From Branchiostoma floridae (Eukaryota; Chordata; Leptocardii; Amphioxiformes; Branchiostomatidae), in contig NC_049986.1 in NCBI RefSeq assembly GCF_000003815.2, forward strand, positions 15,021,811-15,085,810: a stretch of 64,000 nucleotides of DNA. The letters run 5' to 3'. Every line of letters starts with the position of its first letter. Position 1 is the stretch's first letter. Shown here piece after piece: positions 14,134-57,608 of this stretch. A model generated the notes under the pieces. It was given only the letters and a program-made list of their open reading frames with translations, had not been told where the DNA came from and searched no databases. A program made the position numbers and the translations under genes.

Positions 14134-14143
14134 ACATTAAAAC

Positions 14144-25523: not shown

Positions 25524-25596
<73 letters not shown>

Positions 25597-28500
25597 ACAA
25601 ACACAGAGAGAGAGAGAGAGAGAGAAACACACACACACACAGACACAGGCACTGACACACACAAACACACGCACACACACCGCTGCATAAAGACGTGTGG
25701 GACAGACCAGAGTCATACAAACAAATACTGTTTAACCAATACTTCTATTCTTAGCATACCAACTAGGGTGTCCCCAGCCTTACCGTGATGTAGCCAGGAA
25801 GATCCCGTTCGCGACCCCGACACAGGAGATCAGCACGGCGATGGGAACCGTCCAGCCCAGGGAACCCATGGCGCTTTTCGCAAAGGTCTGTAACGGTCAA
25901 ATTCAAGAGAAGATATCAAGACTACAACATGATACATTTTTATGCATTCTAAGACATTGTTGTGTGTGCAAGTGAGACGAAATTTCCTCATCTACCACTC
26001 ATGTAAAAGTTTAGACTGTTTTGAAAATATCAATGTTTATCTCGATTATCTACTCAGTACTCTTCGGCTGTACAAATTAATAACGTCACATAAAGAACTC
26101 ATCCTTCAGCTAGTATGGCTAGAAGGCCTTTCTGTGACATCACTATTACACGGGTATTTGCCCCACCGGAAAGCACTAAGGCGTACTCAAAATACAATTT
26201 TTTTACGTGAATGATCTAGAAACCTTCATCTCACTGACATTTTGTTATGAAGCATTCTCTTAACCTCACTGCTGTCTAGTCGAAGTCTTTGGTATAATCT
26301 GCTCCAGCGATACGTTACAGTCTCGACTGTATGAAAGATAAAAAAAAACATACCACAGCCACTGCAGACGACTCGATGACGTCATGTGCTGACATGACGA
26401 TGTGATAGGCGAAGATGGTCAGCAGATACATGGCAATTATGACTACTTCTCCCACAATCATGGCACGTGGCATCGTCCTGGGGACCGAAAGGAAGAGGAT
26501 GAAAAATAGAAGGAGAAAAGGAAACAGAAGAAGAAACTCTATGACACAAAAACACTGTCAGATACAATATGAGCCAATTCATAAGAAAGTATTACAGTTC
26601 AGGAAGATTGTAAGTTAGCCAAGCTTCAATTCTATACGTTTTGCTTAGCGTAACACCGCTAACAAAACAATATATTATGTATACGCGTACGCAAATCAGC
26701 AAACTCTGCATGTAATCATTTCCTTGGCAGGCAAATTAGTAAATTATGCGGTAGATGTGTGAGAACTCACTTCTCCGGCCTATGGATCTCCTCTGTAACG
26801 GTGTTGAGGTAAAACCTGGAGGCAAAGGTAAAATATATCATGATTCATGATATGGAACGTAGCTCTTGATATGTTCCTTTATGAAAGGCTTAAACTTTTT
26901 ATACTTAACTGTTCACCGCTGGTCATGCAAGAGCTATCTACTGATAAGCACGACTATAGCATTTTCAGAGCACAACATATCAAACCCGGATGTTCCGCTG
27001 CAGTACCATACAAAGCCATTAGGGTGCCTATCATCGAACTTAGTTTTTCCGACGACAACCCACATACTAAATGCCATGACAACTTATCGAGTTATGCTGC
27101 CCACAGACAGACAGACAGACACAAACAAATAAACAAACAAACAAAAGAAGATAATAAAACAAGGCAGTGGGAAATGACTGAGATGAATAAGTCCCTTACC
27201 ATCCTGCATAGGCGAACATCCCGCTATAGAACGCCTGCGAGAGTTTGCCTGGATCCAGCGCTGGACCATCGAACGTGAAGTACTCTAGCTTGCCGTTTCC
27301 TGAGAAGATGTTAAAGATGGTACTATGATATCGTTTATCAAACCTTGGATAGTGACTGGAGTTTTTTTATTATCTTTTAATGTGGATTCCTCTTTAATGT
27401 ACGTTTCCATGATAAGTACATAACCAGCTGAAACCTGTGGGAACATTCAGTGCTGGTATCCGTAGTTTTTAATACTAAACATTGGAGAATTATTCCACAA
27501 GTGTCAAACCCAAAACATTTATGATCACACTTCTATGTCACTATCGTATACATCTTTACTCACCGAACCAAATTTCAAGTATCCCTGCAAAGATAATCAG
27601 GAACAGTCCCGCCACTTTGCCCACGGCGCAGAAGTCCTGCACTTTGGTGGCCCAGCTCAGCCGGAAACAGTTCACAAACGTCAGGAGAACTGAGGAGGGA
27701 CGGTCCGGCGGAATTAGTCTCTTTATCTAATCTCCAACCAGATCCACGTTGCGTAATGTATAGTATCAAACTTCCCGTTTGACTCCCTTAGCCGGCTATA
27801 CTCCCTGGTCAGCTTTGATACTATCTTATGACATCATAGGATCTGCTTGGAGATTACTCTTTATCATTCTAGGTTTAGGACCGCATTGTCAACAGCGACA
27901 CCTAGCTGCAGTGTTGGGTATAACCGGTAAGTATTACCCTGAGGAACGTGACAGACGGTCACCAAAACGTACCTGGCAGTCGTATTTTATATATCATTGT
28001 TGTGAATATAAGACCTTGTTATCCATCGTTTTCATTGTTTAGCAAATATATACATGTGTATATTTGGGATGATGGAGGTCTGTTCCCTGCCACCGCTAGG
28101 ATTGACGTAGATGATGCACAGGGGGTGATTTTAATTGCTGTTATTTCGTAAACAAAGACTGCTGGCGAGTTCCTAGAAGCCTATTACATATAAGTAGCAA
28201 ATCACAACTCAATTAGACACGCGATTACTCAGGAATTAGCACTTAATTATTGGTACTTTAACACAAAACACATTCTGAAAACATCACGAGTGATTCCAAC
28301 AGTGTGAAAGAAATCCCCACGAGTGGTATAAACATAGGCCCCTTTCTCCACTAATGACCTCCAACCTATCATTCAATGCTGACTCTCAACCTATAATTGT
28401 ATAATTGGCGTAAACAAGTCTACATGTCGCTGGGTACATAGCGTTGCCATCTGTTGTCTGTGTATGTGATTTACTACTATGTGGTCGTAAATCAAACCTG

Positions 28501-30114
28501 TTTCAACCAAAGACCAAAAAGAACACTTGGTGGATATCTTCATTGTATCTGAGTCTTTGTGTCACTAATGGCGTGCAGATAGTGCCAAGGTAGTTCTAGC
28601 CTCGGGCTGAGGGCGTTGTTGCGGTCAGGTAGATAAAAAGGGTCACCAAGGGTGCTCACGGCTTCTATGCTGTGCACTCTCTCAAACATGCCATTACCAA
28701 GTTAAACACACTCGGTGATAGGGGGAGGATCACCAAGAATGTACCCTGTAATGTCAGAAACAATGTGGCCCAGGGGATCTTCGATGTGCTCGAAGGGGTG
28801 TCATCCAAAACGTCCGGGAGGACAGTCTGATAGCTATACTGCAGTCCCCGTCAGTAATGTGCAAGCGGGGATTCGGACATGCTTAATTAGTCAAGGACGT
28901 TATATTCCTATATGATATCCTTGCTTTAGGGTATATATTATCAACTATATTCCTTTGTTTTGTAACCTTTGTATGTATGGAATTTGAATGGCTTATAGAT
29001 TACATGATGCTTACATGTACAGAATGTTGTTGTTTCTACGTTGGAATTTTTGGCCCAATGTCCGCTTTCTTGGCCTTAATTGCTACCTTGGTGTGCTAAT
29101 CTTGTACACTGTTTTCATAGCTTAGCTATGTATAGTCATGCCAATCTTAGTTAAGTATTACACCATGTTATGTTGACCTACCTGGGGTTTTGCCTCAATG
29201 AGGTAGGCGTCGGGTTTCCTATTGTCCTGTAACTCTGGCTTTGTTTTTAAATTCCGACAGCTAACGTTATAATTAGTATATGCACATTTCACACATACCA
29301 ATGATGTATTGCTTTTACTTGTATTCATGTTTGTGTGTGTATGTGTTTGGGTGAGAAGGTGTGTATATTTGTGTGTGTGTGTTTGTGTGTGTGCGTTCCT
29401 TTCTTACTCTCTCTTACGTCGTATAATCAGATGTATGGGTCTTAAAAACCTATAAGCAGCATTTCCGTGTCAATAATGTATCATTTGCAGCAAATATATA
29501 AATGAAAATTTGCGTGGTTTGGATTGGATTGTCTAAATCATCTCCTTTGATGATTGATCATCTTTACCTTCAGTTGCACATAGTCGCATAGTATGAAACT
29601 ACCACCACCCATACCTACCTATAATGGCTGCAGCCAGCAGATTGACCGGTAATGCCGGCGGGTCGCAGTACTCGAAGAACGGTTTGACGCAGTAGGTAGC
29701 GGCTGTTCTAGAGAGGACGGCTATCACTCCAGGCCGGATGATGATCATCTGTGTCCACAGTCGCAGGAAGGCAAGGATCGGTCCGAACGCTTCCTTTATG
29801 TAGGCGTAGTCGCCGCCGCACCTCTGTAAGGTGGTGCCGAGCTCGATGTAACTCAGCGCCCCCAGCATGGTGATCACGCCGCAGATACTCCACACAATCA
29901 TGGCCATGCCGACAGACCCAGAGTTGATGAGGATACCCTTGGGGGATATGAAGATACCGCCGCCGATGGTGCAGCCGACCACGATGTTCATGGCTTTGAA
30001 GACCCCGATGTTGCGCCTCAAGGCGACGGGCTTCTCGAGCTCAACGAACTGCCGGTTGACTCCCGTCCCCTTCACGGGCAGACGGTGCTTCCGACGTGCG
30101 CCGACCGACAGCAT
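23363..30114 (-). CDS. SLC7 light-chain amino-acid transporter (b0,+AT/LAT type)
   Basis: Ten exons in coding order: 30114-29619, 27689-27564, 27299-27200, 26815-26771, 26477-26354, 25887-25784, 25481-25385, 24731-24582, 24193-24022, 23529-23363. They sum to 1581 nt, 526 aa (human b0,+AT 487). The family are 12-helix amino-acid exchangers that pair with SLC3 heavy chains by a disulphide. Supporting features are the TM1 motif TIGGGIFISPKG, ELGTTLQRCGGDYAYI, and the Cys in FFEYCDPP before TM4 at the place of the heavy-chain disulphide. FAYAGW and EEIHRPEKTMPRAMIVG follow, then FAKSAMGSLGW and YAGARDGTLPTIL. The C-terminal tail is long, acidic then basic. Intron 6 contains a long CA repeat, intron 1 a MITE and a decayed coding remnant, and intron 7 degenerate tandem copies of the exon-8 acceptor region. 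The closest human subtype is not settled. Confidence 0.94.
24719..25110 (-). repeat. Degenerate tandem repeats copying the exon-8 acceptor of the SLC7 gene
   Basis: The real exon-8 start (exon edge at 24731, motif GGGAGATAGGACACTGGGAT on the plus strand) is echoed by three variants with the equivalent edge at about 24805, 24904 and 25068. All lie in intron 7, upstream of the exon in the gene's direction. Between them are variants of AACACGTCAATAACAAGTC. Spacing is irregular (74, 99 and 164 bp) and divergence is higher than in the PSMB7 array. Confidence 0.75.
25529..25680. repeat. (CA)n and (GA)n microsatellite
   Basis: A long pure CA run (about 25529-25593) is followed by a GA run (about 25603-25624) and further interrupted CA. 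It lies in intron 6 of the SLC7 gene. The apparent Cys/Val-rich open frames on the minus strand come only from this repeat. Confidence 0.97.
27728..27856. mobile_element. 129-bp MITE with 9-bp target-site duplication
   Basis: The terminal inverted repeats are TAATCTCCAACCAGATCC at the left and its near complement GGATCTGCTTGGAGATTA at the right. An inner inverted pair (TAGTATCAAAC / GCTTTGATACTA) extends the symmetry. The flanks are identical, CTCTTTATC at 27719-27727 and 27857-27865. It has no coding capacity. The same terminal motif occurs alone near 2389, 30485 and 33790, so the family is spread through the window. It lies in intron 1 of the SLC7 gene. Confidence 0.9.
28540..28860 (-). pseudogene. 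Decayed protein-coding remnant of unknown family
   Basis: One minus-strand frame stays largely readable over about 300 bases and looks protein-like (for example DPLGHIVSDITGYILGDPPP and NNALSPRLELPWHYLHAISD). It is interrupted and has no splice sites or start. It lies in the long first intron of the SLC7 gene and is not part of that transporter. I do not recognise the family; a fossil mobile-element fragment or a gene fragment are both possible. Confidence 0.35.
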
Positions 30115-31178
30115 AGCTGGTGCAGAGAGCTGCGCTTGTCAACGTTCCAAAATCTCACCCCAAGTCACCAAAATACCCTTCGGGTAGGACAAAAGACTGG
30201 AGACAGATTTCGCCGTGTCTTTGCTAGACTCTGTGACAGAAGACGGATACTGCAGTGTTGGGAAAAGGAGGGACCGGGCTTGAGTCCTTGTCCTACCTTG
30301 GTTTCTTGACGTTTTCAGACAAGGACACTTAAGGACGCCTTCTCACAGTAGCTTGTCCCTGGCTGCACTGGCTGTAACACCTGGGGGCACAGAAAAACTA
30401 GTCCTGCGGGTTGCGCTGACGTCACACTGCCTTGAACAGGTGTGCTGAACCGTGACAGCCTATGAGCACTTTTGTAAATACCACATACATGTATCTGTTA
30501 TATAATCTCCAAGCAGATGTGTGCGTCAGACTTATTTTGCACGGCGTTTTGTGTCATTTTCTATGTTTCACAGTGCTGTGTTTGTGTGTTTGTGTTTGTG
30601 TGTGTTTGAATATGTGTGTGTGTGTGTCCGCGTCCGTGTGTGTGTGTGTTGGATTCTTTAACATGCATGTGTCTGATGACCCAACAACATTCCATTCAAC
30701 TCACAAGTCAGCTTGGCTGTCTTTTTAATGGTCTCATTGCCAATTCTGTACCAAAATCTCATACCATACACATTCCTGAGAGTCTACAGAACTGTGAAAA
30801 GGTAAGGAACTACTGTAAAAAAATTACTTTTGTGCTTGCCATCAACACCGTCAATATTTTCAGTTTTTAAGAGTTCGTTGATGGGGCTATTCATATTGTG
30901 TGATCAACATCTAAACAAGTAGAAAGGCAATGTTTGAAAGCAAAACTAGACAAACAAACTACTGCTCTGTCTATTCGTACTCAAACACATTAATATCTAC
31001 GATGACCAGCTTCTCCAGCTCTGTCCTACCACTTGCTACATAATGTAATAGAGCAACACAGAGTGTCTGCTACTCTCCATTAATCATATAAGAAAAATGA
31101 GAAGAAACGGAGCAAAATGTTTGCAAGTTAAGTGATTCTTGCGAATGACTGTGTCGTCGCCATTAATTCAAACGGACA
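30115..31178. other. Intergenic region between the SLC7 gene and the factor B-like gene
   Basis: About 1.06 kb holding the upstream region of the SLC7 gene and the 3' flank of the factor B-like gene, both minus strand. GT-rich simple sequence lies at about 30575-30650. One copy of the short MITE-end motif (TAATCTCCAAGCAGATG) lies near 30485. No exon is recognised. Confidence 0.45.
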
Positions 31179-34100
31179 TCAGTTGATGACGCTGTGGATC
31201 CAGTCCAGATATTTGGCCACCATGGTGTACAGTCCGAGCTGACCGGGTCGGCCGCAGCCCTGGTCAGTTCCCGTACTGACCACCCCGGCCAGGTACCACC
31301 GGGTCCTCCCGTCGTTCCCGCGGGACACCATGAAGGGTCCGCCCGAGTCGCCAGGGCAGGCGTCCCGCCCTCCCGCGAGGTCTCCCGCGCAGAACATCCG
31401 GGAGGTGTAGTGTGCGGTGGGCCGGCCCGCGGCCTCCATGGCACGCTCACACGTGCCGTGGGACTGGACGGGCAGGGCGATCTGCTGCAGGATCTGGGCG
31501 GTGGGCGTGTCCCCGTCGCCGAGACGACCCCACCCAACGACGGTACCGGTCGTGCCAACCTCACTCATCCTCAGTCCTGAAAAAAATCAAAACAGTTTTC
31601 TTTAACTTTACATCGTAGAGTGACGGACTAATTACTCGGCTAACCGACATCTATCGCACCGCAGTCACCCCTCAGTAAGGCTGTAGCTGCATAGTTCCAT
31701 TTTATAACTTTTATTCAGCCTTTTATTCAGTTTAGAACTTTTATTGGTAGGCTGAATAAAAGTTCTTAGAACATGGCCACTACAACTCAGGAACCCCCGA
31801 GTGGGCGAGCGACCGTATCTACCCATAACTATGCGGCTCCAGATGTCTCACTGAAGGATGACTGTGGTGAGATAAATGTCGGTTAGCTGAGGACTCTACT
31901 ATATAGCTTTCATTTCGCATAAAAATGAATTTTGCGCAGCCAAGTCATTGCTTGATCTTGAGTTGATGATTACCTTGCCGCACGTTTGTGGGTAGGCACA
32001 CGGGTCTGATCCATGGTCCCAGCACGACTGCGTCCCGGAGCTCTAACAGCGCTATATCGTAATCAAAGGCGTCACTGTAACGGTCATAGTCCTCATGAAT
32101 GTACGCCTTCTTCACAGGTACATACTGGGCATGCGCGGTCTTTGAAGTGCCAGGCAGGGACCTTTCAGTTAGACCTGCATGGAATTGGAAAATGATTTCG
32201 TATGACGTTAACCTAACAAGTTGATATTCTAGTTGATACATTGAAGAGAACAAGATAATTCGAAAATCATTAAATAAACAGATATAGTGGTATCTATACG
32301 TTAAGTAATAGTAGAAATAAACTCCAGAACAACTTTTCTTGAAACAAACGTACCTAAACCTACAACAATGTCGGTGTCAATGTTGCCATGGCGATATACT
32401 TCTCCCGTGATGCAGTGCGCGGCGGTGACGACCCATCTTGATCTCAGTAGAGAAGCGCCACAGAAATATTTGTTGTTCCCCTGCAAATAGAAGGTAGGAA
32501 TGGCGACAGTAATCTTGCATGTAGCAAACGCTGTAGATGATCGAAGGCCCACCTTTTGTCATTAGCGGCCGGACTGGACCAAACTGGGCTGTTTAACGTA
32601 GTGACGCCAGCGATGACGTATTTCACAAGTATGTTTTGTCTGTTACATGCTTTACTTTGTCATCAACAACTGGGCATTGCATGTTGGCCATATACAGGGA
32701 TACTGACTGAGCCCATACCTGTTCTGTCTTTAGAAACAGCGCTGTTTGCCACGGCCATGCCCCTTTTTTCGAGTCGGTGCCTCCATCGATGCGCGACCGG
32801 GGCCTGTCCCTCCCGCCCACAGGGACAAGTCCCACAGGGAAGTGCAGATGACGGATGCGGCTATGACGGGTACGAACCAACCTCGTTGGTACGATGCCAC
32901 AATCCGTGACATCAGATTGCCTCTTCCTGTCCCGGGGCTGTTCTGCCGGTTGAGGGGTGACAGGTGGACTTGTTCTTGCCACATCTTCTTTGGGTGTTGA
33001 CAATTCGACTGATGTAGAAGAAGCTGTTGTCGATTCTAGGGAACAAATGGAAACACTCATGCTCCGAAATGCCAAACTGCTTCTGTACTACATCCTACAT
33101 GTTTCTGAAGTCACGCTCTATATTCAAAGTTGCATTTCTAAATGTCTCTGTTGCTCCTATTGTTAGAAGATGCGGAAAGTTACCTCACCTGTTGGAACAG
33201 TTTGGAGTGTTGACGACTCCATTGGTGCTGGACCCACTGTTGTCAATTCTGTTGAACAGATAAAACAAGAAATATTTTCAAAAAGCTGCACATTGCAGCG
33301 AGGTTAGTGAACGTTATGGCACCTAATGCCATCGCTTTTGATTTTCACTGGCATCTCTTCTTTGGCAACCTAGGCATTTGTAGAGACAATCAAATTAGTA
33401 GCTATAATGGGCGAAGAAACCATCTTAAAGCATCACGTTAAAAGAGATCTAAATGATGGACGAATATTTCATACATAATATTCCAACCCTAGTTTCTTTA
33501 AAGTTATCCCACCTGCTGGAAGAATAGTGCCAGCCCACGCCATGAGGCTGGTGACGTTAGTGTAGAACCCATAGCCCCTGCCGTCACACACCGGAGATAC
33601 GCCCCAACTCACAAGACCGGTCAGAACCCATCTCTGCGACCTTCCAAAAGAGAAACATAAGCAGAACTAGGATTGAACTAGATGACGCTTTTATAAAGAG
33701 CGCAACAAGAACTAGCAAGTATACAATGAAAGACAATTGTTGCATGCCACAGAACTACGGTTTAAATTCTACAGAAAGGCGTATGAGACATCTGCTTGGA
33801 GATTACCTGTCCTCCTTCTTGACGTGCTTGACGACGAAAGGTCCCCCGGAGTCCCCCCGGCAGGCGTCCCGGGGCCCTCCGCTGTCCCGGGCCCGGTGTC
33901 CCGCACAGAACATCCTGTCCGTGTACGACAGGGCCTGTTCAGATTTGCTGGTGCTGATTTCGCGCAGGCACTCGCCGTCGCTGCGTATGGGCAGCTTCAC
34001 CTGCTGAAGGTGCTTGGCGGGCCGCCATGACTTTGATGAGGTCACACCCCAGCCAGTGACGTAACCAGACTTCTCTCGTCTAAATTCGTCAACTTTGGGT

Positions 34101-37100
34101 AAACGGAAATAAGATAATAAGTTAGATAGTGAAGTAAGGAAGGTCTGAGGTCTTAGACATACAATTGTACTTTCTCATTGGTCGAAACCACCCAGTCAAC
34201 CTTGATTTATTTCCAAAGTCGGCACTTTTGACCTCTAAGAGAAAGAACGAAATCCAGACGTACCGAAGCTGACGTAGGTCGAGTAGCCCAAGCCAATCAG
34301 TGATTACGTTACTTTTTTTTATGACGGAAAACACACAGTTCTGATCTAAACCCAGCGATTACTCTTAATGTCGGTACCTTCGATGTCTCCGGGCAGACAC
34401 ACTGTCCTGACGTAAGGTCCGAACGTCACCGGGCGGGACAGACGGATTAAGGCAATGTCGTAGTCGTAATCAAGACGCTCGTGGTCGTACCTGGGGTGTA
34501 CGTGAAGCTCTCGGATTCCAAAGTCGTGTACTTCGTTGCCAAGGTCTTTGTCACTGCGTGCCAACATCCCTGAGATAAACAGCTACAAATTACCTACAAT
34601 CTTACTCCCTTCGTGCTTGCGGTATTAGCAACATTAAGAACCCTATCTTTGTCGTGATATATAGTCACTGTGACTTAATGAACACATGATAAATATTACA
34701 TTTTGACAGTTTTCATTCGTGAGAGTGTTGGATAGCATCTATTTGTTCCAAGGATGAAACGGACATTGAGTGATACAATGATATATCATCTTTTCTATGA
34801 TGAGTGTACTCCATTGCAAAATATTCCTACCACATTACGAAACAAATAGATGAGAACGTAACACCGATTGTGACAAGCTCACCCAAATATATCCTGTACT
34901 CCTCGATGTTTCTGTCAGGCGGAAAGCAGTGTGCCGCTGACATGACCCACTCACCGGTCACCAACACTCCTCCGCAGTGGAAGTTATAATTACTCTGAAA
35001 CAGAGACATCTTGTAACCATGGGGATTGCTATGAATGATGATGACAGCAAAATGACTGAATCAACATTTACTAAAAACATCTTGTGAGCAGGGATAAAGT
35101 AAAATGTTTTGCGCTGTACGGATCGATGATTACAAATGAAGAGATTTAGCCTAGAACAATGGCAATGAATGTTAGAACCATGCATTATCTTAGGCAAACG
35201 GACCCATTTGGGTTTCGAAAGACTCATGTAGTAGTTTTTTGCTGACCTTCCGGACGCTTCTACCTCCGTCCCCAACAAAGATGGCGGCTTGCCAAGGCCA
35301 GGCTCCATGTCTTGCGGTCACCCCGCCTATGATTTTGCCTCTGACCGGAGGAGTTGTCCGCCCTGATACGCCACACAGCGAATAGTCTGTCAAGTAAGCA
35401 ACAGCAAATATCAAAGTCGTGTCATATTACTAGTCTCTACCAGATTCCTGCCTGGCCGAATAGGGGACTTAAGCCAAGCTAGGAATAAAAGCCTGGTAAG
35501 AGTTAATTGGCCTAGGATTGTTGGCCGGCCTGGCAAACTGTACTTCTCGGCCATCCGACTCTTCTGGCGTGTTTTCTGCCAATTTCTACAATTTTTCCAG
35601 AGACCTATGGAGCCTGGTAGAGGTTATCATATTGCATTGAATACATGCAGTGTATTGAAGTGGTTTCTAGTGTAGATGGCAATAATTTGACAAACTTGGT
35701 GGGTTCTATTATCATCAAAGAGTAAAGTTACCGATGCTGTTGCTAGTCACGTTCGATACGAGCCACTCCAAAGTCAAGTAGTCCTTTAAGACGAAGAAAT
35801 GTTCCCTTGGAGGATCAGATGCTATTTTCTGGAGCTGTGACTTGACGATGTTCTTCCCTACGCCGATGCAGAACACTTCGACGTCTTCGTCCTCCCTCAA
35901 CTTCTGCGCCTCTGCCGAAGGGTCGCCACCCATGTTGTGAACCCCTGAAACATCGTAGACATGTTTTCTCTTTTGAAACGATCCCAAAATTTATAAATGT
36001 ATCGACTGTATCATTGAAGGTTATTTGATACATACTGATTTTTCAGTAATGATGATCAAAGTCAGGGAACAAGTTTATAAGTGTTCTCATAAGGGTACGA
36101 AACGAACTCAAATCTCACAACGTTTGGAGCGCTCAAGATGTCCTCAAATCTCAGCCGAAATTTTGAAATATAACACGTTAATCGTACTTACCGTCTGTGA
36201 TAAGTATAACCGCTTGTTTAGCCGCCCGTTCAGGAAAGACCTGTTGGCTGGCGACTATCATGTTCTCCCTGAGAAACTTCAGAGCCTCCCTCGTGTTCGT
36301 GCCGCTGTCTGTCACAAACGATACATAAATTAATCAATACATCAATCAATCAATCAGTAAAATTTACTACTCTACCTTTTCTGCCGTAGTTGCACTTCCT
36401 AGAGGCCCAGTGGAGGTCATTGGACATTTACCACGGTAGGATAGTGAACTGCTCAGTTAGACACACAGGTCACGTCAGTTCCCTAATACCATAATTGAAA
36501 ATAATTGACAACATACTTATTTCCTTGGACAGGTTAGACCAGTCGACATTGTCAAGGCGGCCCAGTGTATCTTGGACGGACAGGACCTCTTGTTTGGAGA
36601 ATAGCACCTTTGTTTTGGACGCGAACGCAATAGCACCAACTCGAGTTCCGCCAGGAAGAGTAGATACTCCAACCTATAAGTATTTGATAGGGGAAAAGTT
36701 ACAATTGCTATTGTAAGTGCAAAGTATGTGTCAAAGACGCGTCACAATCTTGGCTACAGATTTAACATAGCATAAGCACACAAACGACAGCACTGCATAA
36801 AAATAAAGACTGAACGATTCTAAGCTGATTTGGACGGGGGGCGGTATAGGCTTCCAGGCACTTTGACCCATTTCTGTAAGTCACGTGTCAGTTATTCTGT
36901 CTGCGCATGCGACCCACAATTAAGTTTGTCGCACATACATCTTACTTTGTTGTACCCACCGCTCAGCCACACTGAACGTTTGCATTTCACAGCCTTTACT
37001 TCATTGATATTCACTTAAGATAGAAACTCTTCCAACGGTGATAATGGTGGTATGGAAATAAAGCTTACCTTCCCAATAAGAGCCTTTGCGAAATCAACAG

Positions 37101-40100
37101 AAGCATTGAACTGGTGGTCACCGACACTTTCCGAAGCGTCAAAGACAAAGTACAGATCCAGTCCGTTGGGGTTGTTTGTGTCGAGGAACCTGGCTCTGGA
37201 CCCCCTGCATTGGTCTCGGTTGTTTCTATCCACATGGCTGGAACAGGACGCATGCGCGAGGGCGTCCAATCTCATGCCGAAGTTTGCTGCAACATCCGGG
37301 ACACTGTCGAAGTCGTTTGGCCCTAAATGTGGAAATTTCATGCCTACATTACCTTGTGACGTCGTAAGGTACCCCATTTTACCGCTATGTGCCTTTACAT
37401 GTAATCTGTGATGAATTGTTTCAGTAAATGTGCTGGTGTATCAAGAATGGGGAAATTGTACAACTTCACTAAAACAAGTCTAGAACATTGTGGATCTTGA
37501 TTAGTTTTACCGACATTTTTACCAAGAACTGTAAACTTCCAATCGCCACGATCCTTCCTACTCCCAATTTTACTTACCCAAGCACCGCGTGTCCTCTCCC
37601 GACCATTCTCCGGACCGCAGGCACTTCCGTCTCCGGGACCCGAGCATCTCGTACCCAGGGTTGCAGTGGAAGATGATGACGTCGTGACGATTGTAGCTGT
37701 TCCCTGTCTTCCTGCCGTTAACTGGCGTCGGTAGAACTGGGCAATCGGACCCTAAAAGTGCCACAGGAAAAATTAGCAAGAGGCACACAAAAAAACCGGA
37801 CGTTGAACATCAGCTGTTACCGTCTAACAATGTAAACAGTATGCATTCAATCTTATACAGTTCTAGTTCTAGGAGCAAGGATGAGACCCACCAGTAACCC
37901 TTTCAGCTTTTTGTCCGCTATCATACGGGCCATTTCTACACACAGTATTAACACATGTAAAATTATAGCACAAATACAATTCAATTATATTACATTACAT
38001 TTCAGTCACCATCGTGCTTTGATTTGTTTACTTCATTCTTAATCTATTATCCCTTTCATTTTCGGTAAGCAAGAAACCAAGCCATGAATGAAATATCAAC
38101 ATACTTTCATCGTCACAGGTTGTGTCGGTGCCGTTCCATGTGCCGTCCTCTCTGCAGGTTCTCTTCGGGGACCCGTACAGGGTGTACCCGCTGAAGCACG
38201 AGAAGTGCACGGTGGACCCGACGGATGTCCTTGTGCCTACCCGCCTGCCGCTCTCCGGTGATCTTATACTCGGACACTGAAGGGCTGTTGCTGCAATAGT
38301 CCAGAACGACACATTGCAATTACACGTAGCAAGCTCCGGCAACCGACCGACCGAATGCCCTAGTGTCTGTGGCCAAGTGTCTATGGCCGACTGATCGAAT
38401 ACCATTATTATGTATCATATGTATACCATCATTGCATGTAGCTCGCTCATAAATACACTATATGAATACTCAAAACTGTGGCACTAGAATATCGTCATAT
38501 CTAGTTTAATCACAATTTTTGTCACGTTCTGTTGAACACAGCACACTGGGTGCGCCATTTGAAGGAGCTATGAAGCGAAAGTCATAAAACCAAGTTTTGC
38601 CTTAAGTAGGACCAAGTAGCAGTGGCTTTTTTTTTGGGGGGGGGGCTAAGTTTGTTCCCTTTCCCATGTTGGCCGATGTTGAAAATCGCGAATAAGCGTA
38701 AGGCTTTCACAGAAGTGTGGTAGAAAAAAAGTTGGAAGAACAACCATGCAACTTTTTCAGCTCTGTTGCTCTCTGTCGAAGAAGTCTAGTCTAGGGTAGT
38801 ACGCGGGCTTTGATCATTTATCTACACCAGTTTCATTTTTTTAACAACGTTTAACAGTGTATCAGAAACAATACACAGTAAGTGTGCGTCTACTACGGGC
38901 TATGAGGCCACCTCAACTATCTCCCAATGGTTCTCCAAACACGCAGGAGCGTACACAGTACAGCCATAGATTTGATACTAGTCTAGTAGACAGTAGTATG
39001 GTTGACTCGTGTTGCAGGTGGTAAATTACCAATTTGCAATATAAGGGTACCGGGGTAATATAATCTCAATACTTGACAGGACATATAGTACAACACATGT
39101 ACGTCGTCTTCAGGATTTGACAGTATAAAATGTTAGTGTTTATAACGAGATTGGCTTATTTACTAGACTGTTTTATTTTCTACTCGGTGTCTCTTGTTCC
39201 CGAATGGTACCCAGTTTGGGGTCATCTCAGGTCAGGATGAAAGAACGCCCCACCCAACAATGCCCCGTTCCAGAACATCTTTATGCCTCGAAGTCGAACC
39301 TGGCAACCGGTCTAGTAAACAGAGCAGTTCTAGCTTTCCCCGAGAACGCACGTGTTTTTCACCCGTGCCGTTTGAGAAGTATTTTCGCGCGTATAACAGA
39401 TTATTTGGCATTCATAATGCCAAAGTCAGGTAAAGAAAAGAGATTCGGTGTCACCAGGACACAAGGAGCCGCTAAGTCGGCGCAGAGAGACGCTCTCCAC
39501 AGAGAAGAGCGAGAGTCAAGAACGGAGCAGCAGTTTGGTGAGCATCAACAACTTTTAAGTCAAACTGACTTGTACACTTTACTTGTTAACATACATAGTT
39601 GCCTATTCCTTTATCTGTGTACATGTATGACTTAGGTAACTGAAACCTTTGTTATCAATGCCAACAAAGTCCATTTTGTCCACGTTTAGATTTCCTGCTT
39701 CCCTCCGGATTAACCCTCCCGCTGCCACAGCGTGTAGAGGAGGAGACCCGAGCTTTCAGCGCTCGGCCTCACGACAAGGTACGGACACTCAGTTTTAACG
39801 TGTCCTCACCAAAGCACAATGAGGTCTTAGCTGTTATTCAGAAGTCTATGTGTTTCCTTATCTTTCTTGAAGGAAGGAAAATAATAGCTATACAGTATGA
39901 TGTGTTCAGACATCGTCTTCATCTTCCTCTTTCCAAATTCATTATCTTTCCAAATGAATTTGTGCAGAATCTAGGTTCTACGACTTTATCATTGATCAAT
40001 GTTACCATTATAACGCTTTCAGGCGGTTTTAACGAAACGCCCAGTGACGCAAAAGCGCAGGGACGGAAGGAAGAAGCCCTACGGAACGTCATGGCGGGCC

Positions 40101-43100
40101 GGTGACGGAGAGTTCACGGACGACGATCGGAGCCCCAGCCGGGGCAGACAGGGACAGGACAGACACGGTTCAGGACAGCTGAAGACGTGTCAACAAGACA
40201 CATCGTGCACTACGTACAAGGTAACTTAGGACACTTGAACCTTCAACGTATCCTCACCAAAACACCCTGTGATCCTCTGTTGGTATGTAGTAGTGTTTAA
40301 CGGACAGATTTACAAACAGGACGTGTTGTTTCGAATTTTCGATAGTCTTTTTATCCGACAGGCATTATTCTAATTTGTCGTATCGACATCTGACCCTTAC
40401 AATCCCAGCATAATGATAGATACTGAACTGATATTGCCCTAGCTAAACTAGAAAAAAACAGAAATCATAGCCTTTTCCCACGTGCTTAGTAATTCAGCAC
40501 CATGGACGGGTACATTTCGTTGTGCGTGGACGATTTTTTGGTGACAAGGATATGTGTGATCGCTTTCCCGTATTTCTATTCATACTCAAGTAAGTAGTCG
40601 AAAGCCTGTCCTGTTTACCTGTATGTAAATGGCTATTTAAGGTTCCGGGTCGGAGTTCAAATCTTACCTGCGGAAGGGTGCTGTAATAGGCCGGAAGTGC
40701 GCTGTTGTCTCCCTCAATTTTGCTCCCTATTGGCTGGTGTAAACGTTGTTATCACATGGATTTTTTTTCATTATTCACTCATATAGCTTCTCTGCCAGGT
40801 AGGCCATTGTCTTCGGAAATTCGTTTTTTTTTCTAAGCAGCTTCGATAAAAAATGTTACCAAATGATGCTTTTCGTGTCCGAAATCGACATTTCTACATC
40901 TTCTACCCCAAATAAAGAGGCAACAGACGATATCAATACGTTTCTCTGAAAGAAGCAAGTAACGGCTTTTCACAGTAATGATTACTTTTTGCGTCCTACA
41001 TTTCTTAGCTGAACTGTAGCCCTTTGGCTACCTTTGGCTAATTTTGAAGGGCTACCTCCAAAATTGTAAGAGAAACTCCGGTCCAAGACCTTAACACCAG
41101 GGACTCCCCTTGCTTGGCAGACCAAGCTATGTTTGCATTCCACCAAACTAACATAACAGCATAATCATACTTTGTTCAATGGTAACCTTTCAGACCGCTG
41201 TGTCAAAGCGCACGAGTACAACAAAGCGCAGAGACAGAAGGAGCCAGCCATACGACACCTCATGGCTGTCCGGAGACGAGTCAGAACAGGACGACGAAGA
41301 AGATTACAGGAGCTCCAGCCGGGGCAGGCCGCGCCAAGACAAGCGCGCCTCACATCATGATAGGTCTTCACGGATCGCGTCCTCCACTCCAACCACTCCT
41401 CACATCCCCGCTCCCCCGTCCAGAAAGGAGAAGAGACGGCTGTGTCCTACTCCCATCGTGCTGACACTCCGCCGTGTCGCACCGCCTCCTCAATACAAAG
41501 CCGAGGAGGCAGCTGGAGCAACTAAAGAGTACATAGTCGTAAAAAGGAGCGAATCAACCAATTCAAACGTCTGCCATGACGATGCAGGTAGCATAAAGCG
41601 CCCTTGCTCTACCTTGGAGGACTCGGAAGAGTCCCGTCGTCAAGATGGCAAAGGCAGCAAACGTCGGATTTCGTACCAAGAGTACATTAACAGATGCAGG
41701 AGTGGTGACAGAAGAAACGTGACCGCCGGTGCAGCTACAGTGCATGACGGCACCAAAGTCAAAGTCTCGGATGAGACGGAGAAGAGTCCAACTTCCGATC
41801 GCGATCGCCGAGTGATCAAAGCACGGCGGCGGATGAGCCAGCACGAGCTAGCGGAAGTCTCGTCACAAATACGCGCCCGTAAAGAGGCACTGTGCCCTCT
41901 GGCAGCAGAGAAGAAGACGACCGCCCCCATAAGCCGCCCTACCTCGTCCGGCTCAGCTGATGTGAGTGCCGCTGCACCAACCCAGGAAGAAACACCTGCA
42001 GTCAGTACAGACGGCGATACCGCAGGCGTACGTCATGGACGGCGTGACGTCATCAAGCACAAGCCGACGTCATCGAGATCAAACATTGGGAAGACGCTCA
42101 TCGAGTTCATCAAAAGAGAGGAGGAGAAGATCAGAAGAGACCAAAAGCTCCGGGAGCTCTTCCGCAAAAAGGCGGCGGCGCTGGCGGCGAAGATTGGAGG
42201 TAGAGGAGCCAGCCGCAGCAGCGGGCCTCCAGCGGCAGCGGAGTTACAGGAGAAGTTGGTCAGATCGGACTCCCCAAAACGTCGGGACGGACGTCTCCGG
42301 CACAGCCTGGGTCAGTCACAGATTCCTCCTAGCGACCAGGAGACGGATATCAGACCACCGGCCCAGCAGTACCCTGTCCAACAGCTCATCCAACCAAGTA
42401 ACATTTCACAGGTGAGTAGGTATAAACTATATATCAGCAGTTTTCATTAATTGATAAAGACTGTCATGTGAAAAATATCAAACAAAGACGGCAAGTATCC
42501 AAACGTTGTGCGTGGGTTAGCTCTGTATATCTTGGAAATATTATGTTATGGGCGTGATGCCATGAGATCAAGAAAAGTATATTCTTTCAAATGACAACTT
42601 GAAACTAAATTTTACAAGTGAGTAAGATGTCCAGCATAGTGTACTAGTGATTTTAAAGGTATCAGCGATCAGTGTTTAAACATGTCGACATGGACGTGAT
42701 TTTAAGTGCTTCTTGACCTCATGTCCGTTTGGAAACATCCTTGTCTAACAGATGTCACAGAGCGGTGGGAATGCACAACGTCTCCTAGCGGCGACGGCTG
42801 TCGCTGCACCACTCCAAAACGTGCCACATGGTGTCCGGACGGACAACCCGAGAGACAACAGGCTCCGTGACATCGTGCCTGATGGTGTCCGTACGGACAA
42901 CCCGAGAGACAACAGGCTCCGTGACATCGTGCCTGATGGTGTCCGTACGGACAACCCGAGAGACAACAGGCTCCGTGACATCGTACCTGATGGTGTCCGG
43001 ACGGACAACCCGAGAGACAACAGGCTCCGTGACATCGTACCTGATGGTGTCCGGACGAACAGCCAGGCAGGACACAGCAGCGCCCACAGATACATGACGT

Positions 43101-46100
43101 CATCTCGTCCTGACCAGTTCCCTCCAAGTGACGTCAGACAGGTGAGTTCTATCCCGGAGTCCTCATTCATGTGTTGATCTGGATTTTTTCCTTTATCCTT
43201 TCTCTTTGGTGCTTTTTAATGTTCCATCGGAGTGGTGGCATTAGCTGAATCGTCACAGTAACAGCCATTTGGAGTCTTTCCAACATATTTCTTGTGGACA
43301 CCAGTGCGGTATACCCTCCGATATGGCATTTAATGCTTTACTTGCCTAAAAAAACATAAGCCGGAGATAGGATTCTCTTATTCAGATCATTAATTAACAT
43401 AGGCTATTTTAGATGTGCTTCAGGCGCCGTTCAGGGGATAACACACTGCTTGTTACGGTTTTTATTTGAATTTCAAAAATTGTCTCCCTCCACCACCGCA
43501 GTCACGTGTTGAACCGCACCTCACACGGCCGGATGGGCGTCTGCAGGGTTACAAACGGCAGCCAGGGACCACGTCAGACTTGCGTCGTCCTGCTGATGAA
43601 AACGCCCACAGACGACGGCGCGCGCCACGATCTTCAACTCAGACACCCCTGAGGTCCATGCCCATCCAGGCTGTGTATACAGCGAAGGAAATTGAACAGG
43701 TCAGATAACAAACGGAACATCGATGGTTCATACAGTGTACTTTTCTGACAACCATTTTCTTGTTAACCATTTCTTTAAATTAATAAACATGTCACTATAT
43801 TTTTTTAAACTTGTTCCTACACGTAGATCAGCATCCCCTATACTCTTACAAATGTCATCTTTTGTGCAGATGGCATTCGCTTTTTTTACACGGAAATTAA
43901 CTTTTTCTCACAGGGCATTCGCTCCATAAGAAATGCCGATGCTGAAATTCCCTCCTCACACGAGCAGAGGTTGGCGGCAGTCCCTGCACCTCGGCTGTCC
44001 AATCCGGCACTACTGACGTCACTGCCCACCCCTCGGCTGTCCAATCCGCCACTACTGACGTCACTACCCACACCTCGGCTGTCCAATCCGGCACTCCTGA
44101 CGTCACTGCCCACATCTCGGCTGTCCAATCCACCACTCCTGACGTCACTACCCTCACTACGGCTGGCCAATCCGCCACTCCTGACGTCACTGCCCACACC
44201 ACGGCTATCCAATCCGCCACTCCTGACGTCACTGCCCACACCACGGCTGTCCAATCCGCCACTCCTGACGTCACTGCCCACACCTCGGCTGTCCAATCCG
44301 GCACTTCTGACGTCACTGCGCAAACCCTGGCCGTCCAATCCGCCACCCCTGTCGTCATTGCCCACACCTCAGCAGGTTTTACAGGTCAGATTTTACCTGA
44401 TGACAAATGATACTGTAGATCATTGTCTTTCCCTGTGTGATGTTAATATTCAACACTGTGCACTCTTCTGCATTAAATCATACGTTCCGTCTTTGACCAT
44501 GCCTGTGTGGTGATCTTCATGTGACGAGGTCTCTAAGTAAGCGATTAAACGTTGGCACCCATTTTCCCGACAGTTTATGAGGCAGCAAAGAGCCAGTATG
44601 TATGGTGAAGCAGCCGCACGTCAGGAGTCTGGCAACGTACAACAGCAGACGTCACTGCCCATGCCTATGACGTCACCGCTCACAATACAGGGTCTTCAGG
44701 TCAGTTTTTTCGTTATAACACGGCCACTATTCAGTACACTACTTTCTTCTTCAAGCCAGACATTCAATCGGTCACTTAGGCATATCTTTGTATACGTACT
44801 TACGGGGTACCAAAATTGCGTGTAATATACTACCCCTTAAACTGCCAAACCCGGATATATCCGGCACACATATACATACCCTGTGTGCTGTGCCCGGATA
44901 TATCCGGGATAGTGCATTCCCCTGAAGTAGCAGCTTTGCGCGCGTGTAGCGCACGAACCCCGGAAGTTAGGGACTTCGGCATTGTTTGGGGGTTTCTTTT
45001 TAGAGGTCAGCAGTCAACACTGGCACTGATAGCAGTTAATAGGGCTGAAACTCTGGCAGTTTAAGGGCTACAATACCCGAAATATCTTCAAAACTCCTAA
45101 ACAGGACTTACATGAAATAGGTCTTAACCTCCGTATTGCCATGAAGTTAAACTTTGGTGCCTCTTTTTTTCTCAAAAGAGGAACAACAACCAGCTGCAGG
45201 CGGGACTTAACGACAGACCGCCACCATGGGAACCACCTATTGCAGTGGGGTCAGCGACAGCATGGATGCCGATACAGGGCTACCCAAGTATGGGCCGTGA
45301 AGCTGCTGTACGTCAGGAGTCAAGTGACGCACGACAGCAGGCGTCACTGTCCACTCCAAAGGCGTCACCGTTCACAACACGTCAGGTTAGTTTTCTTTTT
45401 TGTTATAACAGATATCATTCAGTTAACGGTACTTTTTTCTTCTAGCAGCCATTCAATCGGTCAAATTAGCACATACATGTATCCTCTAAATTGGTGCCAA
45501 ATTTGCTTGTAATGCTACACTATCCTCTAAATCCTAAAGTGGACTTCCACGCAATAGTCTCGGTACTTCGTCTCGGTATTTCGTCATTAACGTAACTTTT
45601 GGTGCCTCTTTTTTTAGAAGAAGAAGGAGAGCAACAACAACCAGCCGCAGGCGGGTCAAAAAGGCAAACCAAGGAAACCACCCGTTGCAGTGAAAGCCGG
45701 GAAAACCGACAACTTGGGCCCAGCGACAGCATCCACAGGTCGCTCCAGTACCAGAACGGCGATGGCTGTACCATTGATGGCGCCACCGTCAGATATGAAC
45801 AACAACACAATCACGGCACCAGCGACACCAGCTTTGCCGGCAGTGTTGCCAGACAGGATTCCTCTAGAAGACGCCATTAGACTGTTAGTTGGAACTGAAA
45901 GCAAAGATGACCCAAGTCGCCATGTGCATGTGGACAGCCCAATGGCAACAACAGCAGGATCCTCCACAAGCGCTTTTCCCAAGAAGCAAGGTCAGAGCAG
46001 CCCAGCTACCAGTACTGGCAAAATGGGACAAAGCAATGGAAGTAGCTCCTTGAACCTCCTGCCAACCAGCCAGCCGACTCGTTTTGGCGACAAAAGGCCT

Positions 46101-48463
46101 AAGAAGCGTGCGTGCATCGGGACAGATACTAATACAGGCAAACGGTTCAAGCCGCAGAGTAACCTCGCGTCAATGTACAATACGTGTGAGCCTGTCGACA
46201 TTTCCGACACTTCGTACAACGTGAAGGAAGACGACGGCGTCGACGGCTACGAGACGCCGTGGAACTTCGGCGTCACCCCTAACCTATCCCTGAGCCGCTC
46301 AGAGGGCGGGCTGTGGCACTCCTGCAAGCCGGTGAAGAGCTTGAGCAGACCGCCGCCTCTCCCTCCGTTATACCGTCCCCGTCCCCCGGGGCTGGAGCAC
46401 GTCCAGGACAGCCCTCCCCCGACCAGCCCGGGCTCGCCGCGCCACCCTAGCTACCCGCTCCGCTACGGCGCCACGGGGAGACGCAAACCGATGAATCATT
46501 ACCTGACGCCGTACCACAGAGTAGGCGTTCTGGAGCACCCCGGCTCCCCGTTACAGTCCACCTCCACATGTCCCGACCACATGGTGGCCAGGTACCAGAA
46601 CTACCTGTGGATCGAGCCGTACGACTGGACCGACTCCGGGTTGTGCGACATGGTTGACGCGTCAGTCGACTCGGCTGTGCCAAACAAGCAGGAAGAGGGA
46701 CAACATAATGACGATGCGATGGACATTTGCTAAACAGACTATCAAGTAAAAAAGGCCAAAAAAAGATTTTATTAGCGCTATTTATTTTGTATGATTTTCT
46801 TTCGGGGGAGGGGGGGTTTAGAATCATTTCCCGTTGACGATATTATTCGATGGCATTTGTCTCTAAAAATGCCACACCACCAAATGTTAGCCAAACTGTG
46901 GCAAACAACATCGTCAACAAAACTGTTTGGCCGTACTTTCGGGACCTTATCAAAACCTGAGCTACACATTTTGGTTTCATTATGTTATTGTATTGTAGCT
47001 TATAGGAAAGGAACAAATGTTAACACATGTCAACGCGGCTATGTATGTGTCCTAACTAATGAAATGTGAGATTCAACGTATACCACATTTTACGTGTACA
47101 GTATTTGTGACCTGTGATTAAAAAAGGCACTTTTCATTATATTCGAGTCGTTGTCTTACATGTCTAGTTGTCTATGATTTGTAGCAGCTGATATCAAAGA
47201 CGTTCGTTAGCATCATGGACGAGAACAAATAGGTCAAAGACGGTATTAGTCTGATGTACAACATGTAATGCATGTCTTATAATCTACCTGTACATCAAGA
47301 GGCAGCCTATGTGATCGGTGTCGGTCGATGTTGAAAATGGTGAATCAGCGCTGATACCGCCCCCCCCCCACACACACACAGGCACACCCACTAAAGTTAT
47401 AAACGCCGCCGCTCCAGACGCATGAGAAGGAGACTATGCACTCGTTAATTTTCGCCAGATTTCAGAAAAAAAGTTTTCTTCTTTGAAGATGCTCAACATG
47501 ACGAAAATGAGCAAATGTGTTGTGTTGTAGCCTAATAGTTATACTTTTAGAAGTGGCATTACTCTTGTAGCCATGAATGTAGCTGTAGAAGTAAAACTAG
47601 ATGGATAGTTGTTAACGTGGCACCAATGTGGAAGCCATGAATGTAGTTACCAATATTGTAAGTGATATCAATCTACCATGCTAGTGTCACTTTTACTCCT
47701 CTTTTTACAACGCTTATGGTGTCTATTTTGTAGCCATCTTGTTTTTTGTAGCCATCTTGTTTTTTTTCCGCCCTATCTCACTATTTTTGCAGTCTGCAGA
47801 TGGTGTCATCCATAAATTTTACCGTACTTGCTGTGCCTGTGGCCTAACAACGAGTTCTTACGGCATGTCAAAGTATATTTATCCACATTACTAGCAACTT
47901 CCTCGGATGGGGCAACGCCACCTTATTTCCGGTGGTCGGGGTCGTCTGGGGCACACTTCCGCACACTTTCCCCAGCCCATTGCTTTTACTTAAGCATCTA
48001 GTTTTAGCATGCTAGGATACTGAAAAACGCATTTTACACAAATCCACGGACACTACGTATTATGTATTCAAATCAGCTTCACTATAACTGTTATGTTCCA
48101 TTTAGCTTTTTCAGTGCAATGAACAGAGGGCCACGGCTTAACGTCTCGTCCTAAGACTACAACACTTCCCTTTACCTTACAAGTATGGAAGATCAACAAT
48201 AGTTGGTATTATTACCCCCCAACGCCCCAATACCATTTTGATGACAACAGAACCACACAGGTAAGTGGGCCATAGCATTATTAGTTGGATAAGAAATGAA
48301 AGTATCATATTTGATAGCTCTCATGGACTTCCTGTCATTGTGAGGAAGTGACAAAGATCAAAGGTGCATGTATTCCTTGACACTTACCTTCTACAGCATC
48401 TGTGGCCCCAAGCCCACCAAGGAACGCCAACAGGACAGAAAAGACAAGATGAGCGACCAGCAT
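31179..48463 (-). CDS. Complement factor B/C2-like protein with two serine protease domains
   Basis: Seventeen exons in coding order: 48463-48388, 38290-38105, 37751-37578, 37322-37069, 36673-36517, 36308-36192, 35944-35732, 35386-35247, 34994-34883, 34569-34378, 34074-33807, 33631-33513, 33248-33189, 33035-32719, 32480-32354, 32174-31974, 31576-31179. The sum is 3111 nt, 1036 aa. Domains are a signal peptide (1 to about 22), CCP1 (about 31-83), CCP2 (about 91-144) and vWA (about 200-390) with MIDAS D207-x-S-x-S211 and ITDG (Asp321). The next block, VHNMGGDP, is diagnostic of factor B/C2. Protease 1 follows (about 411-667; H461, D514, S616), then a Ser/Thr-rich linker with RDRKRQ, and protease 2 (about 772-1036; H817, D877, S982). 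Both proteases carry Asp six residues before the serine, implying trypsin-like specificity. The family forms C3 convertases in plasma. Vertebrate factor B has three CCPs and one protease, so this layout is unusual. The first exon is assigned by phase and signal-peptide content only; all others are firm. Confidence 0.88.
31615..31899. mobile_element. Fold-back element with about 90-bp inverted arms
   Basis: The left arm (31615 to about 31710) and right arm (about 31815-31899) are imperfect inverted repeats, for example CTCGGCTAACCGACATCTATC against GATAAATGTCGGTTAGCTGAG. Between them is a further hairpin (AACTTTTATTCAGCC / GGCTGAATAAAAGTT). It lies in the last intron of the factor B-like gene. 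There is no coding capacity. Arm divergence suggests some age. Confidence 0.8.
38291..39416. other. Intronic stretch between factor B-like exon 2 and the nested gene
   Basis: No exon is recognised on the minus strand here. I looked for a nearer signal-peptide exon and found none. On the plus strand this region must hold the promoter of the nested gene; no clear TATA box or other element is identified. Confidence 0.4.
39417..46733 (+). CDS. Repeat-rich basic protein of unknown family, nested in the factor B-like intron
   Basis: Ten exons: 39417-39537, 39690-39778, 40023-40220, 41194-42411, 42752-43141, 43502-43699, 43914-44384, 44574-44699, 45179-45385, 45618-46733. They join in phase to 4134 nt, 1377 aa. 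From exon 3 on every internal exon is a multiple of three with phase-0 borders. Exons 3 and 4 start with related sequence (KRRDGRKKPYGTSWRAGD / KRRDRRSQPYDTSWLSGD). Exon 5 holds 4.4 copies of an 18-aa repeat, exon 7 nine copies of a 14-aa repeat, and exons 8, 9 and 10 share segments (EAAxRQES; NNNQxQAG). The protein is rich in Arg, Ser and Pro. A possible bipartite nuclear signal is KRPKKRACIGTDTNTGKRFK. No signal peptide, membrane helix or known domain is seen. The frame is open upstream to an ATG at 39204, so the start is uncertain. An ATTAAA signal lies at about 47117. I do not recognise the gene and give it no function. Confidence 0.75.
42821..43056 (+). repeat. 54-bp coding tandem repeat (18 aa, about 4.4 copies)
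   Basis: Units start at 42821, 42875, 42929 and 42983, with a partial at 43037. Each encodes VPDGVRTDNPRDNRLRDI with almost no change, and the DNA units differ by one to three bases. The repeat stays in the frame of exon 5 of the nested gene. The other five frames are also open across the array, which explains the many overlapping open frames seen there. Confidence 0.96.
43989..44366 (+). repeat. 42-bp coding tandem repeat (14 aa, nine copies) with CRE palindromes
   Basis: Nine contiguous 42-bp units start at 43989 and then every 42 bases to 44325. They encode PRLSNPPLLTSLPT with small variations; the last unit is the most diverged. The first eight each contain the octamer TGACGTCA. The array fills most of exon 7 of the nested gene. 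Confidence 0.96.
44833..45066. mobile_element. 234-bp MITE with CCCTTAAACTGCCA ends
   Basis: Inverted ends CCCTTAAACTGCCA (44833) and TGGCAGTTTAAGGG (to 45066) are flanked by CTAC on both sides, a 4-bp target-site duplication. Inside are two copies of the palindrome CCCGGATATATCCGG. It lies in intron 8 of the nested gene. A relative in reverse orientation, sharing the end and the block AAAAGAAACCCCC, is present at about 59217-59420. Confidence 0.85.
46734..48387. other. Intron 1 remainder of the factor B-like gene, downstream of the nested gene
   Basis: About 1.65 kb with the nested gene's 3' UTR (to the ATTAAA at about 47117) and then non-coding sequence. A short C run followed by CA lies near 47360. 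No additional CCP exon is recognised on the minus strand. Confidence 0.4.
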
Positions 48464-56436: not shown

Positions 56437-57608
56437 GTCCTCTTTTCTGTTGATATTGTAGAGGTCCACAGAGCTTATTACTAACATGGCGATAGTTTGC
56501 CAGTGATAAATTGATTTAAACAGTAATGTTTATATTAATGTTTATAGGACAACTATTGCATGATTCAGATTTACTTTCCATGACACTGTAAATATGTACC
56601 TACGCTAACAAATCTGATACAAAACCATTTGTGATACACAAATGTATGTAGTAAAGCCGAAGGACGAAATCATCGGTATCAAGACCAGGTATCAGTTTTA
56701 ATCAGACTTCCGCTCTGTAAACCGGAATACTTTATGACATGCGTATGAACGCTACATTTGTCATCATTTATTGTTTCAAATGAAACTAATATTGATACAG
56801 ACTTGCTTTGCTCAAATGTGTAAATCCAATTAAAACGTGGCTATGTCAACACTCATTCCTAATAACATCACCACTGTGACATCAACTCAGCCTTCATGCT
56901 CTGACTGTAATGATATGAAGTTGTGTTCTCAATTAAAGAATTACTACCACTACTTTATGTCTGACCAGCATTTTTGCAGCTTAAACCTAAATGTCAACGT
57001 CCACGACTAAAACATTCCCCAACAGAAGTCTCATCATATCAAATCACATCATGTCAAATCATCAGAACAACTCAAGTTTAATGATAACTGGACGAAAACA
57101 CGCAAAGAAAACACAGCCAGAATTGCAGGTGTACATAACTCCGATTTGCAAATCTCCTTATAATGTTTCTCAATATCATTGAAATTCGCTTAATGTATGA
57201 TAAAAATAATATGCATAACCACAATGAAGTTATAGTATTATAGGCATGAAAACAAAAATTATGATGTTTCTTAATTGCTTATGGTTAGTGTATTGCGACT
57301 CCAGCTACAATGTATTTACTCGAGAAGACATGAAAAACGCAATATACAAAACATTATGATACAATACAAATAAGGCTGATCACTCAAATCCGAGCCCAAA
57401 GATATCCTAAAGCTTTTACCTTTCCTGGAACCTCGATATTAAAAAGAAAACGTTCAATATATTCGATTAGAAACGTTTGTTATAATGATTTCTAAAACTG
57501 AACTAGTAATTATGTTTCGTTTACTTGAAACTGGACAAGATCGTTAACCTGCAATCGACCGCGTTACTCAGGCTCAAAGATCAGCCACTGGTACAAACAA
57601 CACAAGGT
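56437..57608. other. 3' flank of the first CUB gene
   Basis: This holds the 3' UTR, with possible ATTAAA signals near 56829 and 56932, then AT-rich intergenic DNA. No coding sequence is recognised. Confidence 0.45.

Follow-up and report, generated by a model that had tools for sequence, protein, structure and literature searches.

A factor B/C2-like gene model with two trypsin-like protease domains in Branchiostoma floridae

Vertebrate complement factor B binds C3b through its von Willebrand factor A (vWA) domain, ahead of which it is cleaved by factor D. Human factor B and C2 have three CCP (Sushi) repeats and a single serine protease (SP) domain, in the order CCP-vWA-SP. We describe here a gene model that keeps this order on the minus strand of a 64,000-nucleotide stretch of Branchiostoma floridae (the window hereafter; contig NC_049986.1, positions 15,021,811 to 15,085,810), in which two CCPs were found and in which the expected protease (SP1) is followed by a second complete one (SP2). 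This gene layout with two proteases is real and unusual. We propose, with a probability of about 0.72 judged from the sequence, that it belongs to a single gene encoding a secreted protein of 1043 aa (signal peptide, CCP, CCP, vWA, SP1, Ser/Thr/Pro-rich linker, SP2).

The combination of two CCPs, vWA and SP is also that of the invertebrate factor B proteins Loxosceles FB, Ruditapes FB and Hasarius FB-3 (PMC4714745). Table 1 of that paper gives factor B proteins of 636-1084 aa with 2-7 CCPs and with EGF-CA or LDL_A as the only extra domains, and the B. belcheri FB/C2 is described there with 3 CCPs and EGF-CA (752 aa). Unlike our gene model, none of the invertebrate factor B proteins has a second protease named in this table, in agreement with an earlier sequence-only reading of the locus, according to which the known factor B and C2 proteins carry a single protease domain. 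However, a 2024 survey (PMC11312191) writes the architecture of C2s and BFs as 'CCP1-7-VWA-Tyrp_SPc2' in its results and as 'CCP1-7-VWA-Tyrp_SPc1-2' in its discussion; given the latter formula, two-protease members may already be in print, perhaps in Figure 5 of the survey, as far as its available text indicates. The legend of that figure gives XP_035685199.1 as the B. floridae BF. In a mainly open literature (subscription journals lie mostly outside it), no paper specifically on a factor B with two proteases was found in the titles and abstract beginnings among the matches listed, and none was found for Branchiostoma complement factor B-like with serine protease. Several trypsin-like domains in one chain, two or three of them, are known from human polyserases 1-3 (PMC1435904); they are released in polyserase-1 and not in polyserases 2 and 3, and the available text of that paper mentions no CCP or vWA, unlike what is seen in our model.

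The model was built from genomic DNA alone, with exon ends on the minus strand picked by eye at AG and GT. From 38284 to 31179, 16 exons and 15 introns give one open frame of 1017 aa with a terminal stop; with a predicted signal exon the product reaches 1043 aa and the sole stop stands at the protein end, whereas the two remaining frames of the spliced sequence (signal exon included) contain 34 and 36 stops. The features of the model, all on the minus strand, are as follows.

48388..48463, minus strand: predicted first coding exon, putative signal peptide MLVAHLVFSVLLAFLGGLGA-TDAVE (from hydropathy and donor score)
38105..38284, minus strand: CCP/Sushi domain 1 exon, phase 1-1 (exon chain, Pfam)
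37578..37751, minus strand: CCP/Sushi domain 2 exon, phase 1-1 (exon chain, Pfam)
37069..37322, minus strand: CCP-vWA connector, possible factor D-like cut SRAR188|FLD (suggested by the factor B alignment), vWA start with MIDAS D-A-S-E-S (D205)
35732..36673, minus strand: remaining vWA in 3 exons (36673-36517, 36308-36192, 35944-35732), with SGTNT and ITDGVHNMGGDP (Pfam, alignment)
33513..35386, minus strand: SP1 in 5 exons, with Cys395, K408|IIGG, H459, D512, D614 (Asp189 equivalent) and S620 (Pfam, alignment)
33189..33248, minus strand: linker mini-exon of 60 bases and 20 aa, phase 1-1 (exon chain)
32719..33035, minus strand: linker remainder with RDRKR735, Cys742, R778|IDGG and the SP2 start (exon chain)
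31179..32480, minus strand: SP2 remainder in 3 exons (32480-32354, 32174-31974, 31576-31179), with H824, D884, D983 (Asp189 equivalent) and S989 (Pfam, alignment)
31181-31179, minus strand: stop codon of the gene model (exon chain)
30724..30729, minus strand: ATTAAA, the first AATAAA or ATTAAA past the stop (hexamer scan)

Gene structure, domains, catalytic residues, metal-ion-dependent adhesion site (MIDAS) and activation motifs can all be read directly from the sequence. The domain search proposed by the sequence-only reading returned, with Pfam, two stretches of Trypsin (354.8 bits, cut-off 20.6, E 2.7e-106), one VWA (111.9 bits, cut-off 23.8, E 5e-32) and two stretches of Sushi (71 bits, cut-off 20.7, E 1.1e-19). 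On SP1, DUF1986 also matched (28.1 bits, cut-off 25.2), and Trypsin_2 stayed under its cut-off (22.9 bits, cut-off 27.6); NCBIfam gave a weak VWA match alone, far under its cut-off. An open exon chain that carries these domains is far beyond chance expectation. The phase-joined CCP-CCP-vWA-protease unit, Ser/Thr-rich linker and second full protease claimed earlier were thus recovered, as was the second triad, with numbers 7 lower in that reading (H817, D877 and S982). The last SP1 exon, previously placed at 33631-33513, starts at 33640 in our model; the AG at 33631, nine bases on, is likewise in frame.

The front half of the predicted protein resembles factor B most clearly in its arrangement and motifs. 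With the human proteins of solved structure as references, CCP-vWA-SP1 is colinear with factor B (E 1.4e-58) and C2 (E 4.5e-48), the CCP repeats, the vWA and a trypsin-like protease following one another in one chain. The MIDAS is present (DASES, SGTNT, ITDG and ITDGVHNMGGDP, aligned to factor B), and we take its DxSxS, Thr and Asp residues to have their usual roles in vWA domains. The model and factor B share the SLCG junction and the HNMGGDP that follows the vWA Asp. We take HNMGGDP to be diagnostic of the factor B/C2 family; in the alignments, both vWA domains of proximal thread matrix protein lack it. Finally, human factor B has a basic stretch before the vWA, its QKRK lying opposite SRAR188|FLD, a possible cleavage site of the factor D/C1s type, in the alignment.

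The two proteases differ from that of human factor B. The catalytic triads are H459, D512 and S620 in SP1 and H824, D884 and S989 in SP2, and both domains have Asp189 and an I-x-G-G start (chymotrypsin numbering assigned by the analyst); in human factor B, position 189 is Asn and the I-x-G-G start is missing, whereas SP1 begins at a K|IIGG activation site. The absence of I-x-G-G and Asp189, if taken as a defining trait of the family, might not apply to invertebrate members. Because of Asp189, SP1 and SP2 should both cut after Arg or Lys; for human factor B, the title of a reference cited in PMC7914634 assigns P1-Arg to Asp226. The earlier statement that the locus is clearly factor B/C2 is borne out by architecture, MIDAS and vWA motif but not by the SP1 sequence (Asp189, K|IIGG, thrombin-like), and two protease domains would stand, by Pfam and if one mRNA carries both, where factor B and C2 have one. 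The protein is best read, from its predicted sequence, as having the factor B/C2 architecture plus an extra protease, both proteases being trypsin-like zymogens of the ordinary kind.

SP1 and SP2 are 36-38% identical, and each is 36-41% identical to thrombin. The three internal introns of SP2 have phases 0, 1 and 1, and SP1 has the same three phases in the same order plus a fourth intron of phase 2; two of the shared introns fall at an identical aligned residue and the third within one residue. This layout suits a common origin of the two predicted cassettes, whatever its date, and the similar phases would fit either an ancient duplication or a gene layout inherited from a common ancestor. A recent tandem duplication of one protease was considered and given little weight, the identity between SP1 and SP2 being about that of each with thrombin.

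The linker region bears on the choice between one gene and two. SP1 reaches its natural end without a stop codon and its last exon closes in a usable donor; the donors of the two linker introns score 7 and 8 of 10, compared with 6-9 for the other 14 introns. Neither AATAAA nor ATTAAA, the two hexamers sought, occurs between 33513 and 32720, and ATTAAA appears 450 bases past the final stop, at 30729. The in-frame ATGs in 33800-32720 are at 33543 (last SP1 exon), 33222 (linker exon) and 33060, and no signal-like sequence was found after any of them; the hydrophobic starts at 33745 and 33332 are out of frame and run into stops (frames read by the analyst), and no phase-1 signal exon was found in the linker region at a hydropathy of at least 2.2 and a donor of at least 8. 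The missing hexamers, the lack of an in-frame signal-like start and the usable donors favour one predicted gene. A duplication of the linker was also considered and set aside: the only trace was a stretch of 22 similar bases at the ends of two exons (score 29; the best of 200 shuffles scored 28), and a repeat search of 32400-33900 gave one 17-base pair, too little for such a claim.

Since the CCP1 exon begins in phase 1, an upstream exon is required. A minus-strand scan of 38290-52000 for a start codon, a hydrophobic stretch and a phase-1 donor gave three candidates, of which the top one, MLVAHLVFSVLLAFLGGLGATDAVE at 48463, has a hydropathy of 3.02 (best 10 residues) and a donor of 9/10 (AAG|GTAAGT, phase 1), against hydropathies of 2.2 and 2.01 for the others. 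Over the whole window, a hydropathy of at least 2.2 with a donor of at least 8 is found on the minus strand only at 48463 and 43095 and on the plus strand at four starts, two of them near-identical (50345 and 60418); 300 first-order Markov resamples (13.7 kb) yielded no candidate that reached both a hydropathy of 2.9 and a donor of 9. The likely first coding exon is therefore 48463-48388, with a predicted signal peptide. The interval 31179..38290 given by the sequence-only reading stands as to the exon chain and lacks this 5' end. A third CCP upstream of CCP1 was rejected, as no Pfam family was found to E 0.1 in the three minus-strand frames of 38285-48202. Inside the predicted first intron, long open reading frames of 432, 228, 159 and 371 aa lie at 41152-46733 (plus strand), without a Pfam match to E 0.01.

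Several observations weigh against a single secreted factor B-like protein with two proteases. The signal exon is separated from the CCP1 exon by a 10,103-base intron that holds long plus-strand open reading frames, which makes it likely rather than certain, and in a looser scan of 38250-49000 (ten starts) the start at 45877 exceeds 48463 in hydropathy, with a donor of only 6. The vWA domain alone, ranked by whole-sequence score, places factor B third (56-59 bits), behind proximal thread matrix protein (86-87 bits) and collagen VI alpha 3 (66-78 bits), both of which sum several vWA domains; for a single domain, factor B is best among the alignments shown (56.7 bits vs 43.1 and 43.9 for the thread protein), the best listed domain of collagen VI alpha 3 having 15.6 bits among the matches listed and its best domain lying beyond them. 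In blastp, SP1 matches SP2 with 162 bits, thrombin with 145 and factor B with 80, the last being an underestimate because the factor B row ends at residue 702 of a 739-residue chain (last 37 residues missing); SP2 matches thrombin with 150 bits. When SP1 is taken alone from IIGG, all of the best 60 of 550 matches are thrombin or prothrombin chains. AATAAA occurs within introns of the model, at 34211, 31745, 31727 and 31715. The GC content at third codon positions is 0.46 in residues 677-778 compared with 0.62-0.75 elsewhere, so the linker is the part whose coding status is weakest, and room is left for two genes. The strict furin pattern R-X-K/R-R has no match in the whole protein, and the basic cluster RDRKR735 was for this reason rejected as a furin release site.

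Among the alternatives, the one that survives best is compatible with the single-gene reading. One gene might produce alternative forms (one with both proteases, one lacking the mini-exon and a secreted one with SP2 only) because the signal, last SP1, mini- and SP2 exons meet at phase-1 junctions, with introns 1, 12 and 13, among others, in phase 1; skipping the mini-exon (phase 1-1) would preserve the frame. Phase compatibility is the one argument for these forms, and shuffled extracellular domains usually have phase-1 introns, so we advance these forms tentatively. Somewhat more doubtful is a mosaic protease of the polyserase kind outside complement, whose CCP and vWA would serve for binding only. 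At least two tandem trypsin-like domains in one polypeptide, as in human polyserases, are present in the model (from genomic sequence), and SP1 is closer to thrombin than to factor B and has a canonical activation site; the CCP-vWA-SP order, MIDAS, HNMGGDP, SLCG junction and Arg before the vWA, however, match factor B. Finally, two adjacent genes, one factor B-like and ending after SP1, the other a trypsin-like protease starting in or after the linker, appear unlikely: retention of the intron after SP1 would give a stop after 14 extra codons, ATG 33060 is in frame with the SP2 exon when read through to it, the third-position GC of the linker is low and the 162 bits between SP1 and SP2 are little above the thrombin matches, as for family members side by side, but the two hexamers sought, an in-frame start with a signal-like sequence, a phase-1 signal exon at the thresholds given above and a stop at the end of SP1 were not found there, and SP1 has a usable donor.

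The window contains other features of interest. An uninterrupted 932-aa frame at 6007-8805 (plus strand), with leucine-rich repeats and a TIR domain, is a Toll-like receptor candidate. Exon-like pieces of a Na+-dependent nucleoside transporter lie at 8800-18701 (minus strand), and one exon-like piece at 21202-31101 (minus strand) matches the amino acid permease family. Tandem repeats with 54- and 42-base units occur at 42820-43061 and 43987-44370. The segments 49036-53939 and 57592-62186 (plus strand) form a tandem duplication of five matching blocks (72-88% identity), with near-identical signal exons (MGTSVAFLFFT...) starting at 50345 and 60418, and weak LDL-receptor-A and CUB matches were obtained in 49000-58901.

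For the single-gene protein with two proteases, we infer one mRNA, secretion, C3b binding, and the cleavages together with their order. The vWA MIDAS would bind a C3b-like partner through Mg2+, and a cut after Arg near SRAR188 would remove the CCP part, in the way that factor D cuts factor B. Activation of SP1 and SP2 would take one cut in each, at K408|IIGG and R778|IDGG, and because both are expected to cut after Arg or Lys, each could cut the activation site of the other. By analogy with chymotrypsin-type zymogens, Cys395-Cys532 and Cys742-Cys904 are presumably chain-linking disulfides. Either the linker or the Cys742-Cys904 disulfide would probably hold SP2 in place unless a further cut fell at the basic cluster at 735; given this disulfide, a cut at 778 alone would not free SP2 and one near 735 would be needed. 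Release of SP2 by cleavage in the linker, as the sequence-only reading proposed, may be possible. A single-chain convertase with an accessory protease, as the sequence-only reading interpreted the locus, is plausible. The coding chain proves continuous in the gene model, with the factor B/C2 arrangement, two full proteases and a linker rich in Ser, Thr and Pro, and the word convertase stays conditional because SP1 has a residue 189 and an activation site unlike those of human factor B.

Vertebrates need a second protein, factor D, to activate factor B; the invertebrate route is unsettled. No factor D-like activator was identified in the horseshoe crab, according to the available text of PMC3351276, and no invertebrate factor D had been characterized according to that of a sea anemone paper (PMC4840205); the 2024 survey (PMC11312191), in its available text, gives factor D genes for several phyla of invertebrates, Cephalochordata among them. 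This last report weakens an already very improbable reading, namely that the protein is a self-contained convertase precursor in which SP2 acts as an on-board factor D-like activator, cutting SRAR188 and K408 in the same or a neighbouring molecule. If this were true, C3b-bound copies would activate one another and need no separate factor D. A factor B-like chain that combines a zymogen SP1 with a further protease of the Arg/Lys type would offer a testable alternative for activation in invertebrates, and SP1 as an ordinary zymogen may hint at how the protease of vertebrate factor B became unusual.

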